A stretch of DNA of 64,000 nucleotides from Pyrrhoderma lamaoense. Its lineage: Eukaryota > Basidiomycota > Agaricomycetes > Hymenochaetales > Hymenochaetaceae. This document shows positions 58,740-64,000 of this stretch, in pieces; the stretch's first letter is position 1, and every line of letters starts with the position of its first letter. The translations under genes and the position numbers were made by a program. Under the pieces are notes generated by a model, which did no database searches, was not told the origin of the DNA, and saw nothing but the letters and a program-made list of their open reading frames with translations. The DNA lies in the NCBI GenBank assembly GCA_002794735.1, contig NBAZ01000001.1, forward strand, positions 3,630,993 through 3,694,992, in the 5' to 3' direction.

Positions 58740-60540
58740 GTTGTACACAAAAGATTTAGTATAATTAATTAATGTTAGCAAAAATCATATAAGACCAATA
58801 ATAGTCAAAAATAATTAATTCAGCAAAAATAGTAAACACACAACAACATTGCATTAGAAAAACTCCCAAAAAGGGACCAAAATTGGCAAAAATCACATGA
58901 TAAAACCATAACACCAATAACAGTAAAAAAAATAGTATACAAAACCAATAAAAGTAAAAAAACAGTACATAATGTTAATAATAGCAATTATATCAAAACA
59001 TCAAAGATTAAAAACACACTAGAACACCATTAAAAACAAAAAAAATGAATATTAGAATAAATAAAAGATATTGAATAATACCAAATATGGATAAAAAAAT
59101 AACATTAATGTTAAGAAAAGTTTTGCATCAACAATAATAGTAAAAAATGTTAGATAACATTAACAATAGTAAAAAAAATAATATATTACACCAATAATAA
59201 TAAAAATAGATATTAAGCCATAAATAGTATAAATTATTATATATTATCAAAAATATAAAATTAGTAAAAATAATATAATGTGAAAAATTGAAAATACATG
59301 AAATAATAAAGTTATAAAAACAGATAATATTAATATAAACATTAATATTAGTTATGTAACACCGATAACAGTAAAAAAATATTAAATAACATGAATAATA
59401 GTAAAAAACCAAAGTATAATATTAATAAAAAAGTATTATGTAAAATTGATAATAATAGAAAACCATCATATAAAATAAAAAAGCAAAAAATAAAAAAAAA
59501 AATTTTAAAAAGTATTATATAATAAGTTAAAAAAAGTTGAAATATCAAAATTATATATTATTTTAAATAATAGGAAATTTTTAAAAAAAAATTATTTAAT
59601 AACCCAAAAAATAATATAATATCATAACAAAGATTATATAATATTATATCAAAATAAGTTATATAAAACATTAAAAAATTATATAATATAACATTAAAAT
59701 AAATTATATAATATTTTTAAATATAAATACTGCATAAAACCAATGATGGCAAAAAATCATGTAAAGTATATTACATAATATTAAAAAAGTTAAACACAAT
59801 ATAATATTAATAATAATAAAAGTGAAGTCATACCAGAAATTATAAGAAGATTAAAAAAAAATAATGTTAAATAATGATAAAGTTATAAAAATATTTAATA
59901 TTATTATTAAAAAAAGTTAAGTTTTACCGATAATAGTAAAGAAAAGTTAAGTAATACCCATAATAACAATGAAATAATAATAATATGAATAATAGTAAAA
60001 AAACAGAATAAAAAATAAATAATATGATAAAAACAAGAATAACAATAAAAAAAATTATGTAAAATTGATAATAGTTGAAATAGATGTTATAAGAGAAAAT
60101 TAGATTATTAAGAATTAGATATTATTGTAAATATTAAGAAAAATATTACATACATAATCAAGTATAAAAATTTAATAATCAGATAAAATTATTATATAAT
60201 CATTCAATATGTTATTATATAATTATATATCACACATTATATAATCAAATATTAATAATTGAAATAGATGTTATAAGATAGAGATTAAGTAAAAAATAAA
60301 GAAAAATAAAATTCAAAATATAATAAATAAATTGAGATTGAAAATTAAATATTATTGTAAACAATGAGAAAAATATTAGATATATAATCACACATTCAAC
60401 ATTATATAATCACACATTAATTATGTAATAGATTTCAAAATAAGCACAGTATGAGATTGATAATGACAAAAATGATGTGAAACATATTTTGTAGTATTAA
60501 AAAAGTTAAATGTAGTGTAACAATAATAGTAATAAAAAAG
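58740..60540. repeat. AT-rich, A-skewed degenerate subtelomeric repeat
   Basis: About 1.8 kb made almost wholly of A and T, with far more A than T on the plus strand. A loose unit recurs every 30-40 bp: CAATAATAGTAAAAAA or close variants, for example near 58798, 58914, 58947, 59131, 59163, 59360, 59392, 59930 and 59988. Open frames in it (Tyr/Phe/Leu-rich on minus) are products of composition. The region ends abruptly at 60540 where the sequence becomes GC-balanced. It looks like an old minisatellite or a heavily mutated subtelomeric block. Confidence 0.8.
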
Positions 60541-60565
60541 GGGTTACACCAAAAGGGTGTAACCC
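60541..60565. repeat. Perfect 10-bp inverted repeat at AT-rich/element junction
   Basis: GGGTTACACC at 60541-60550 pairs with GGTGTAACCC at 60556-60565 around a 5-base loop (AAAAG). It sits exactly at the sharp composition boundary between the AT-rich repeat and the telomeric retroelement region, 31 bp before the inner TTAGGTG array. As RNA or single-stranded DNA it would fold into a stable hairpin. It may mark an ancient chromosome end or an element boundary. Confidence 0.7.
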
Positions 60566-60596
60566 TGAGTTGGGACCGAAAATGGCAATCCCCGGG

Positions 60597-60645
60597 TTAG
60601 GTGTTAGGTGTTAGGTGTTAGGTGTTAGGTGTTAGGTGTTAGGTG
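60597..60645 (+). repeat. Inner telomeric array, 7 units of TTAGGTG
   Basis: Exactly seven perfect 7-bp units of TTAGGTG (49 bp), on the same strand and in the same orientation as the terminal array at 63810-63998. It abuts the 3' end (in RNA sense) of the Penelope-like element. I interpret it as the former chromosome end on which the element was added. Confidence 0.95.
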
Positions 60646-60648
60646 AAA

Positions 60649-60745
60649 ATTGTCGAACCGACGAGCGCAGCGAGGAGGCGACAATCAAAAAAACGATGAA
60701 AAACAAGGAAGCGACGGGTAGCTGATGCTACTCATATTCCCGTTT
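60649..60745 (-). ncRNA. Structured 3' end of the Penelope-like element (hairpins)
   Basis: In the last 100 bases before the inner telomeric array there are two inverted repeats. ATTGTCG (60649-60655) pairs with CGACAAT (60679-60685) around a 23-base loop. A compound stem near 60714-60745 is built of CGGGTAGC, TGAT and GCTA, then CCCG after an 8-base bulge. Located at the RNA 3' end, such structures could be the recognition site of the RT. This is a candidate RNA element seen only as complementarity. Confidence 0.4.
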
Positions 60746-60989
60746 CGCATAGTATTTATATGCTCTTCAGGCTATCCTAGTTTGGTAAGTGGTGCAACAA
60801 TCACGCAATATGTTGCAATATTTGCGTGATATGACATCATGTAGTGCGGGTAAAAACGTACCGAGATTAGGCGATAATCGGGTGGTCGCCTTAGTAACAT
60901 GGTCCGTGCACTTCTGTGATCCCGATTTTCTCCGGGGTCACGTGATATGGTGCGCGTATTACTAAGCCTTACCTTACTAAAGTGGTTAG

Positions 60990-61011
60990 GTAATCGGCTT
61001 TAGCCGATTAC
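60990..61011. repeat. Perfect 10-bp hairpin in element 3' region
   Basis: GTAATCGGCT (60990-60999) and AGCCGATTAC (61002-61011) form a perfect stem with a 2-base loop, directly before the interstitial telomere-like tract at 61036. It could be a transcription end signal or part of the element's RNA structure. Confidence 0.6.
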
Positions 61012-61035
61012 GTAACTACGGTCCAAGCATGTTAA

Positions 61036-61185
61036 CCGGTTAGGGTTAGGTGTTAGGGTTCCGTGTTAGGTGTTAGGGTTAGTAGTTAGCTAGAAGTGTT
61101 ACTAAGTTAATTACTCTTCTTAATTTCTTAAGCATTGTACTTACGGTTAGGTGTTAGGTTGTTAGGTGTTAGTGTTAGTATCCTA
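61036..61185 (+). repeat. Degenerate interstitial telomere-like tracts (TTAGGG mixed with TTAGGTG)
   Basis: Two tracts, 61036-61096 and 61144-61185, separated by about 50 bp. The first contains about three TTAGGG and two TTAGGTG units with breaks; the second contains TTAGGTG and shortened forms such as TTAGTG. They lie between the RT stop codon and the inner 7-unit array. They may be buried old telomere ends left by stepwise element additions, or part of the element's own 3' region. Confidence 0.75.
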
Positions 61186-61399
61186 AACACTCTCTGTTAA
61201 TACCGTCTGTTGCCAGTGATATATTCCGAAGTACCTACAAGATGTAGTTGCGCTAATGAACGATGTGATCCTTGTTTCCATATTAGTTTCGATTGCTTTC
61301 TCCTCCGGGTTACTACCCTCGGGGTACGACATATCTCAGTCAGTCAAAGGTTAGTCCCATGGCAGCTTACTGTCGGCCTACACCGAATAGCAGGGCTTT

Positions 61400-63685
61400 T
61401 CACCAATGGGCCTGAGTCCAACCTTTACTAACACGGTCCGGAGATGAACGAAGATGAATATTGTGAACTTCCGGTTCACTATCGACTTCCATTAATGATT
61501 CCTCCTCAGTAATCTGGGAAGACACCGGTGGAGTTTCATATTCTTCTTCTAGAACTTGTTCATCCATCATTTCTAAAACTGTCTTTTTCCAAAGACTAGA
61601 TAAATCGAATAAATTGCGAGTCCTTTTACGACTTACAATCATTCTTCTATTGAGGATATCTGTGTTCCGTAGATCCGGGATCCAGATCTCTTTTTGAGTG
61701 GGGCCTGTTGTTAATAACAGACCGTTGCCAGCTGTAAGCTCCACATCGCAATGATAATTGGCCGGAGGTGCGGGATATTCAATGGAGAATTGTTTAGTGT
61801 CAGCTTTGCTGAGCCACGACTTCCAGTATCCAAATATAGTTTTAGATAATTCATTAGCATTGAAATAGTTCCATACCGGGTTAAATTCTGTTTTAAGGAC
61901 AAGAACGTCTACATGCTCACTCGACTTATTTACTTTTAGTCGACTTTCCCATCGTTGTTGTCTGTTCTCCTTACACCAGTTTTTAACCAGGTTACTCGGG
62001 TACCCTCGCTTTGTGTACAGAGCTACTAAACTCTGCAAAGCTATATGGTAGACTTCCAGTGTACTACTGAGGGTGGCTAACCGAGACATTTCACCAATGA
62101 ACGTACCTCTTTTGACGTCATATGGGTGATGAGATATGAAAGGAACTCTTTCCTGATGATTGCCAGCTTTCCGGTAAGGCATGTGTTGCAATTTGTACAT
62201 GTCATCTTTGTACACTGCCATGTCTAAGAAGGGTTGCCATAAGGCGCTGACATTCCATTCAATCACACAATTATCGAATTGAATTTTTGATTGTATTTTA
62301 TTAAGTGCTTCTAATTCTGAAGAGGCGTATATAATAGCAATACAGTCATCGATATACCTGCCATAGAATGCTATTTGCGGGTCTTCCATTACTTTACTTT
62401 TTCTTTCGAAGTACCAACCATATAGATTTGCTAGGTCTGGTGAGTCAGCGACTCCCATAGCTAATCCGTTTAATTGGAGAAAGTATTTATCTTGGAATTG
62501 TGTGACTAATTTAGTATTACCGACTTCGAGGCATCGTTTGAAAACTTCTTGTCTCATCCGATTAAATTCTGAGTCATGATCCTTAACCCCGTACCAATAG
62601 TGTTCTTCATACAGTTCAAACACTATATCTAAACATTTATCAAGTGGAATGTTTGGGTAAAAGGCCACGACGTCACCAGTACAGATATACCAGTGTTTGC
62701 CAGGAAGTAGTTTTAGTTGAGAGAATTTTATCGCCAAGTCTTTGGATCCATGAATAATGGTAGGCGCCGATTGAATGATCGGTTTTAACAACTTAGAAAC
62801 GTACTTAGCAGCAGGGTTCATGATTGCCGAATGACATGGAATAATCGGTCTCATTTTGACCGGGTATTTATGGATTTTAGGAATTCCATAGAACTTTGGT
62901 ACATGATGCTCAGATCCTTTCGGAGTTATCTTATGCCGGAAAAATTCCGGAAGTTGATCCGAGTCTTCTAGTCTAAACATGCACTCTTCTGCTAATTTAG
63001 CGATATCTTCCATCGCAGTACATTTGTGTCTTAATATACTGTTCATTTCAAACTTTGATAATGGTTTGTAATCTTTAGGATTATTTAGAATATCAAGACA
63101 TTTCTCAATGATCCAGGTCTTCTCAGACACCGCAAGCCCTAAGTTCTTGTCTGTTGTAGTAATGATATAATTATTACTAACTAAGAACTCCTTGAGTTGT
63201 TTAACCGAAGGTTTGAGAATTTTATAGTAATCCTTCGGCGACTCATCAGGTATTTTGGATATCGTGTCATTAACGAAAATCCGACCCTTGACGAGACCAA
63301 GTTCAAGATACTGCGGTAGTATGGGTGGGCGTTTATTTGATAGAGGTCTCACATCATAATCAGGATCGTATGAGATATCAATTTTACCTTCAAGTGCGAA
63401 TTTAAGTCGCCACCTGAGTCTTCTTTGAAAGTCGGACCAGGCATCCTTAATTAACTGTTTCTTAAGGGGTTGGTAAAACATGAATCTTAAACCAACACTT
63501 AATTGAAGGGCATATTCATCTGGCATATTTACATTTGGCGAGCAATGAACATAATTTTTAAATTGGGCTGCAGTAATAATAGATACAGGAGTATTACATA
63601 AAATTACATTTACTGCCTTTGTAAATGATAATGTTAATATATTATCAGGGAGGGTAGAGGGTTCACCATACCGGAATGAGGTCAT
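61400..63685 (-). CDS. Penelope-like reverse transcriptase (no GIY-YIG domain)
   Basis: A single intronless frame of 761 residues. PLE-type signatures: DKNLGLAV (residues 179-186, the N-terminal block shared by PLE RTs), VPKFYGIPKIHK (262-273) with RPII, motif A TGDVVAFYPNIP (337-347, catalytic Asp 338), motif B NGLAMGVADSPDLANLY (406-422), motif C YGRYIDDC (441-448, the catalytic YIDD) and FLDMAV (486-491). After the thumb, about 190 residues follow with no recognisable GIY-YIG nuclease and an acidic Ser/Glu-rich end. This places it with endonuclease-deficient PLEs, the RT group closest to telomerase RT, which use exposed chromosome ends as primers. It is intact over 2.3 kb although many genes in this window have single-base breaks, so it may be recent. 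Confidence 0.93.
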   Translation of the reverse strand: MTSFRYGEPSTLPDNILTLSFTKAVNVILCNTPVSIITAAQFKNYVHCSPNVNMPDEYALQLSVGLRFMFYQPLKKQLIKDAWSDFQRRLRWRLKFALEGKIDISYDPDYDVRPLSNKRPPILPQYLELGLVKGRIFVNDTISKIPDESPKDYYKILKPSVKQLKEFLVSNNYIITTTDKNLGLAVSEKTWIIEKCLDILNNPKDYKPLSKFEMNSILRHKCTAMEDIAKLAEECMFRLEDSDQLPEFFRHKITPKGSEHHVPKFYGIPKIHKYPVKMRPIIPCHSAIMNPAAKYVSKLLKPIIQSAPTIIHGSKDLAIKFSQLKLLPGKHWYICTGDVVAFYPNIPLDKCLDIVFELYEEHYWYGVKDHDSEFNRMRQEVFKRCLEVGNTKLVTQFQDKYFLQLNGLAMGVADSPDLANLYGWYFERKSKVMEDPQIAFYGRYIDDCIAIIYASSELEALNKIQSKIQFDNCVIEWNVSALWQPFLDMAVYKDDMYKLQHMPYRKAGNHQERVPFISHHPYDVKRGTFIGEMSRLATLSSTLEVYHIALQSLVALYTKRGYPSNLVKNWCKENRQQRWESRLKVNKSSEHVDVLVLKTEFNPVWNYFNANELSKTIFGYWKSWLSKADTKQFSIEYPAPPANYHCDVELTAGNGLLLTTGPTQKEIWIPDLRNTDILNRRMIVSRKRTRNLFDLSSLWKKTVLEMMDEQVLEEEYETPPVSSQITEEESLMEVDSEPEVHNIHLRSSPDRVSKGWTQAHW

Positions 63686-63816
63686 GTTGACTTCTTCTTC
63701 CCTTTGCCCTTCCCTTTCTTGCCAGGGGCCGCTTGTTTCGACGGCTTCGGCATCTTCCCACCCTTGACGGCGCTTACGGCTTGTTTCTTCTTGCCAAGGG
63801 GCGGCGGTGTTAGGTG
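63682..63816 (-). CDS. Lys-rich 3' end of an upstream element ORF (5'-truncated by telomere)
   Basis: Reading upstream of the reverse transcriptase in another frame gives 44 open codons. They begin at the stop codon supplied by the telomeric repeat and end in a TGA that overlaps the RT start as ATGA (63682-63685). Fourteen of the 44 residues are Lys; pieces are PPPLGKKKQAVSAVKGGK and PGKKGKGKGKKKST. The rest of this frame is cut off by the telomere at 63806. It resembles the basic nucleic acid-binding end of an ORF1-type protein. The ATGA overlap suggests coupled translation of RT after it. Whether the remnant is ever expressed is unknown. Confidence 0.5.
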   Translation of the reverse strand, partial: HLTPPPLGKKKQAVSAVKGGKMPKPSKQAAPGKKGKGKGKKKST

Positions 63817-64000
63817 TTAGGTGTTAGGTGTTAGGTGTTAGGTGTTAGGTGTTAGGTGTTAGGTGTTAGGTGTTAGGTGTTAGGTGTTAGGTGTTAGGTG
63901 TTAGGTGTTAGGTGTTAGGTGTTAGGTGTTAGGTGTTAGGTGTTAGGTGTTAGGTGTTAGGTGTTAGGTGTTAGGTGTTAGGTGTTAGGTGTTAGGTGTG
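63806..64000 (+). repeat. Chromosome-terminal telomere, (TTAGGTG)n
   Basis: After a partial unit GGTG at 63806-63809 there are 27 uninterrupted, perfect TTAGGTG units (63810-63998), then TG at the very end of the sequence. The G-rich strand runs 5' to 3' toward the contig end, as expected for a right-hand telomere. The unit is 7 bp, not the 6-bp TTAGGG typical of most filamentous fungi. Confidence 0.95.

Follow-up and report, generated by a model that had tools for sequence, protein, structure and literature searches.

The right-hand end of contig C1 raises the question of how a putative reverse transcriptase (RT) gene came to lie between two telomeric arrays, and whether the chromosome end itself could have primed its synthesis. 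We analyzed the final 64 kb of this contig (3,694,992 bases, in an assembly of 72 contigs and 30.65 Mb in total), hereafter the window, the end of which is the contig end. Our reading is that the C1 end very probably carries a Penelope-like retroelement (PLE) of the endonuclease-deficient kind, truncated at its 5' end, which lives at chromosome ends and would be primed by the chromosome 3' end.

Results

Proceeding outward, C1 ends in seven TTAGGTG units, a 3.16-kb RT-encoding segment and 27 further TTAGGTG units. The preliminary description had reported an element bracketed by perfect arrays of these sizes, and both arrays were located; a two-unit TTAGGTG word had no match in 100 dinucleotide shuffles of the 64-kb window. 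The features of this end are listed below with their positions in the window and their strand.

58751..60539, no strand: very AT-rich subtelomeric block; up to 60500 its G+C is 10-23% in steps of 250 bases, and blastn aligns it with the ends of C6 and C18
60540..60596, no strand: short subtelomeric segment, also present on C18, that borders the inner telomeric array on its internal side, from a 32-base pattern and alignment
60597..60645, plus: inner telomeric array, 7 x TTAGGTG, perfect
60646..63809, minus: very probable Penelope-like element, 5'-truncated (3' end at 60646; 5' truncation at ~63806-63809; 3,161-bp segment to 63806)
60646..60690, minus: 3'-terminal hairpin adjoining the telomeric repeat, from a core pattern search; predicted fold -8.7 kcal/mol
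60707..60777, minus: candidate hammerhead-ribozyme-like motif (CUGAAGA / stem II / GAAA / stem III / C17), from a descriptor, structure and comparison with C18
61038..61180, plus: degenerate telomere-like tracts within the 3' UTR, TTAGGG-like units mixed with TTAGGTG-like ones
61400..63685, minus: RT reading frame, 761 codons, first ATG to stop
63686..63809, minus: N-terminal coding remnant, with no stop in the RT frame before the junction
63810..63998, plus: terminal telomeric array, 27 x TTAGGTG, perfect, to the contig end

The 761-codon frame contains no internal stop and encodes a YIDD motif. Pfam made no RT call on the window's own protein, for which the sole match was Rpb4, below cut-off; RVT_1 was matched in 13 of 39 aligned family members. 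The blocks TDKN-x-G, GDVVA-x-YP and IDD, which we take to be PLE blocks, are conserved across the 39 aligned sequences, and telomerases were the top structural matches of the RT model in both Foldseek and VIA-align, with low TM-scores. Relatives, motifs and modeled fold together support the assignment of the protein as an RT. Its earlier characterization as an RT with PLE blocks and YIDD agrees with these data, the PLE label coming from the motifs: no PLE structure was among the structural matches listed for the model, and kinship to PLEs in particular therefore rests on those motifs. RNA-virus polymerases were also present among the Foldseek and VIA matches, and we did not infer kinship from their presence there. 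A profile search against solved structures returned weak matches only (best E 0.023, to the Drt3a RT), and scans with the RT alignment yielded 15 pattern-matched stretches in viral contigs and 43 in bacterial and archaeal genomes, with no confirmed relative in either set.

With Pfam, the TERT RNA-binding domain PF12009 was not matched in the element protein, and no GIY-YIG domain was detected at E up to 1 in any of the 39 aligned proteins, the window RT and 38 relatives. This agrees with the preliminary description, the copies covered in this genome being truncated ones. A loose GIY-YIG regular expression run over the 120 relatives listed matched a single protein (P0002); this candidate was discarded, as the match falls inside the part that aligns with RT and thumb and adds no domain.

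Read in the RT frame, the sequence continues without a stop as far as the telomere junction, giving 807 codons. Among the 120 relatives listed, the N-terminal extension beyond the window's first Met measures at least 300 residues in 79, 100-299 in 23 and fewer than 100 in 18, and the shorter relatives may have been cut by their contigs. Because the frame is open to the junction and relatives extend further N-terminally, the C1 copy has lost its 5' part, and it is therefore probably not autonomous. A second frame is also open over 63686..63809 and reads as a K/G-rich tail, with a TGA overlapping the ATG. A termination-reinitiation start at this overlap was not adopted upon comparison of the proteins, since many relatives read on without a change of frame and the alignment to the relative P0097 extends ~36 codons to the 5' side of the ATG. 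The first 266 residues of P0097 had no match in the genome, an insensitive test if the N-terminal part is poorly conserved. The frame had been described as intact, which holds for the absence of internal stops but not for the copy, which is truncated inside the coding region.

Searches with the window RT and with P0097 (49% identity) place RT sequence at at least two loci in the 30.65 Mb, the ends of C1 and C6. A search with the 3' UTR further recovers a partial second copy on C6 and a ~120-bp C18 piece, 74% identical, its other matches being telomeric repeats. When the 3' hairpin core was searched in the whole genome with at most three mismatches, five forward and no reverse matches were obtained, with none for a reversed control. 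These five 3' ends (a single one on C1, a stack of three on C6 and a single one on C18) lie 3.3 kb, 2.1, 2.0 and 1.7 kb, and 5.7 kb, respectively, from the right-hand contig ends. In contrast, of 65 RVT_1 matches (TERT included), 31 are on contigs of known length, and two of these 31 come as close as 5.7 kb to a contig end. The inward-facing RNA 3' end, noted previously for C1, is shared by all five, and all five are near contig ends and beside TTAGGTG, as an assembly-wide search had been expected to reveal; the C18 remnant is now interstitial, being followed by subtelomeric DNA on a contig that has no terminal telomere. Internal copies were not found in the window RT, hairpin-core or P0097 searches, and the four genome sites matching the hammerhead core pattern are all inside element copies. 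The RT copy on C6 is split over two frames by a frameshift.

The 3' junctions are phase-locked, with five of five reading GTTAGGTG/AA (register TTAGGTG/AA, the stroke marking the junction), and they define two 3'-end subfamilies: AAAATTGTCG, found on C1 and twice on C6 (subfamily I), and AAGTTATAA, found on C6 and C18 (subfamily II). The 5' truncation points vary, and are followed by telomeric repeats in four of the five copies and by subtelomeric DNA in the fifth, on C18. Outward on C6, one TTAGGTG follows the shared AT-rich subtelomere. Next come a subfamily II stretch of ~76 bp and two units, then copy A (C6-A, subfamily I, ~346 bp) and about two units, and last copy B (C6-B, subfamily I, ~1,486 bp), whose RT is cut at about residue 518, with ~30 units to the contig end. 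The 5' ends enter TTAGGTG where the sequence already resembles it, at GGTTAGGT in C6-A and GGTGAT in C6-B, and the innermost C6 5' end does so at a GGTG-like site, as judged against C18. Healing by telomerase is expected at sites that already resemble the telomeric repeat, and the 5' junctions on C6 would fit such healing. The telomeric end of C21 carries no element, and its array is joined at GTTGTGT, within sequence that is also present on C18.

Inward of the element, the subtelomere is common to C1, C6 and C18, the last carrying a second block in tandem, and the AT-rich block also matches the left end of C10 in short pieces. A 32-base pattern from 60540-60596 has two genome matches, on C1 and C18; beyond this shared segment C1 continues with seven units and C18 with two, followed by different element subfamilies, while C6 departs from the shared subtelomere ~85-90 bp earlier (counted by eye), at AAAAAAGTTA. 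With its three stacked copies, C6 documents in a small space a series of additions at the end of one chromosome, and its sister ends display the sequence as it stood before insertion.

Pairwise identities are 99.3% for C1 and C6-B (10 mismatches and one gap in 1,486 columns), 96.8% for C1 and C6-A, and 97.4% for C6-B and C6-A. The element had been called young and possibly active: its youth is supported by the first of these values, while "possibly active" suits the family better than the N-terminally truncated C1 copy. The same high identity, the common subtelomeric DNA and its tandem block on C18 could also reflect a Y'-like spread among chromosome ends, with subtelomeres exchanging sequence through recombination or break-induced replication, instead of the element's own reverse transcription. 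We consider this improbable: recombination should carry flanks along, whereas the copies start exactly at the element 3' end beside a telomeric unit and their immediate flanks differ, as do their 5' end points; moreover, copies are stacked on C6, and the RT frame on C1 is open and conserved with relatives.

Telomeric repeats on both sides would equally be left by endonuclease-dependent internal insertion into an interstitial telomeric array with later breakage of the chromosome there, but this is very improbable given that no endonuclease domain was found, that inner tracts of one to seven units face outer arrays of 27 (C1) and ~30 (C6), that truncations coincide with the outer repeats, and that the three genome searches above returned no internal copy. 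An assembly or base-calling artefact with misjoined telomeric caps, which a stop in one telomerase exon match and the left-hand ends without arrays might suggest, is hardly credible when C1 and C6 are built alike, both with perfect repeats, yet are truncated at different points.

Toward its 3' end the element presents, in order, the hammerhead-like motif, the terminal hairpin and the telomeric repeat. The motif combines a CUGAAGA, GAAA and C17 core with a stem II of 5 bp, a stem III of 4-5 bp and a bulged stem I of 6 bp, and its predicted cleavage site lies between 60713 and 60712. A descriptor, composed after the motif had been seen, gave one match in the window and none in 100 first-order Markov random 64-kb sequences; among 21 other stretches it picked out the two C6 copies, with no match on C18, on C21 or at any of 18 left-hand contig ends. 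Rfam reported no hammerhead at the gathering threshold in the whole window, nor at E 10 over 60500-61500. C18 retains CUGAAGA and GAAA and has a U at position 17, a substitution that the hammerhead motif tolerates; an A-U pair of stem II is replaced by G-C and a C-G pair of stem III by A-U, and stem I loses pairs. Free folding favors other structures, at -16.4 versus -11.7 to -14.7 kcal/mol for C1 and -20.4 versus -11.6 kcal/mol for C18. Judging from sequence, a hammerhead in the element 3' UTR is possible. Passages of PMC11167929 and PMC6155905 describe hammerheads in other PLEs, and in those of PMC11167929 cleavage by a PLE hammerhead is dispensable for insertion in vitro.

Discussion

In the mechanism that we propose, the element RNA would end in the conserved hairpin and at least one (CACCUAA) repeat, with the hammerhead-like fold just upstream, and this tail would base-pair with a bare G-rich 3' end, at a telomere or on a broken chromosome. 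The telomerase-like RT would then lengthen the chromosome from that end, using the RNA as template from the RNA's own 3' end outward, and early stops of synthesis or erosion of the new end would create the variable 5' truncations, to which host telomerase would add TTAGGTG repeats. Repeated rounds would build head-to-tail stacks with short telomeric tracts between copies. The observed orientation, register, end location and capped truncations are those predicted by chromosome-3'-end priming combined with telomerase healing; the RNA tail, the priming, any ribozyme activity and the division of labor with telomerase are what we infer. More tentatively, and on balance unlikely, element RNA with its own 3' telomeric repeats may heal broken chromosomes via a few matching bases; on this reading the single unit and the element after AAAAAAGTTA on C6 could have been copied wholly from element RNA, without telomerase, and the TTAGGG-like units of the 3' UTR could be a relic of an earlier host telomere sequence.

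A separate telomerase (TERT) gene is indicated on C5, where PF12009 was matched above cut-off, with one exon match containing TAA, and a below-cut-off RVT_1 match lies nearby. In a TTAGGTG host with an apparent telomerase gene, the element provides a testable case of priming at chromosome ends by a telomerase-like RT that has no endonuclease.

Endonuclease-deficient PLEs at fungal telomeres have already been described, and the present element is a further, well-supported example in which the junctions are well documented and a hammerhead is possible; the name Coprina belongs to elements of this kind. According to passages of PMC3846280, endonuclease-deficient PLEs apparently prime on exposed chromosome termini, telomeric repeats follow their truncated 5' end, and theirs is the only kind of PLE in fungal genomes. 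The same passages portray Athena of rotifers and the fungal and protist kinds as sharing an RT without GIY-YIG, a location largely at chromosome ends and a truncated 5' end to which telomeric repeats are added (PMC3846280), in keeping with the behavior previously ascribed to known Athena and Coprina elements; the likeness is one of description, not sequence, and the telomeric unit here is TTAGGTG. Telomere-linked copies are reported in Agaricus bisporus (in parts of PMC7473861) and putative telomere-linked elements in Mycosphaerella graminicola (in parts of PMC4522978).

Terminons, the giant Athena-type elements of Adineta, are comparable, as sections of PMC6431247 present them, in having a 3' hammerhead motif (here a candidate, hammerhead-like one) with reverse-complement telomeric repeats after it, 5' ends truncated by short runs of telomeric sequence and head-to-tail arrays, but in our element a ~45-nt hairpin is interposed between hammerhead-like motif and repeats, 3.2 kb is visible and no accessory ORFs are seen in the truncated copies. 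Telomerase RT resembles the element protein in supplying the best structural matches of its model and in acting on chromosome 3' ends, as the element would; it differs in being encoded separately, by the TERT on C5, and the element would copy its own RNA. The Drosophila elements HeT-A, TART and TAHRE form head-to-tail 5'-truncated arrays. They too are retroelements added to chromosome ends (passages of PMC5537684), but are non-LTR elements of a host without telomerase, whereas here a telomerase gene appears present and telomeric repeats cap the copies.

A TTAGGTG telomere unit was absent from the titles and abstract openings surveyed, which does not imply absence in print; excerpts of PMC10100673 give for Candida auris a longer telomeric unit that begins with the letters TTAGGTG. 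Ten of the 42 window frames of at least 120 codons were scanned with Pfam; three had no match, and Telomere_reg-2 and Adeno_E3_CR2 fell below cut-off. Cohesin_load, SLIDE, SNF2, An_peroxidase and DUF6534 were matched in the same scan, and it is mainly such families that make a fungal host probable, DUF6534 being typical of basidiomycetes.

Telomeric arrays and element-associated sequences

In a pattern count across the whole genome, contig ends bearing at least three perfect units of the host telomeric repeat TTAGGTG were found only on C1 (NBAZ01000001.1), C6 and C21, with every one of these arrays located at the right-hand end and a genome-wide count of zero for arrays of at least three perfect units on the reverse strand. 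At the C21 end (separate stretch L054, own coordinates 2600-2910) the array is joined directly onto sequence whose continuation is seen on contig C18, and this terminus is possibly a break healed by telomeric repeats without the element. At the C18 end itself (L055:1400-7160), two telomeric units and a degraded 3' end of the element make up an interstitial scar, beyond which lies another block of subtelomeric sequence, oriented like the first.

Within the 3' UTR of the C1 element, telomere-like tracts at 61038-61180 intermix TTAGGG-like and TTAGGTG-like units. Upstream of the RT ATG, a second reading frame (63686-63809) would encode a K/G-rich tail, and its terminal TGA overlaps that ATG. Finally, in the telomerase gene region of C5 (L056), the match to the telomerase RNA-binding domain contains an in-frame TAA, perhaps reflecting a consensus error or an intron.
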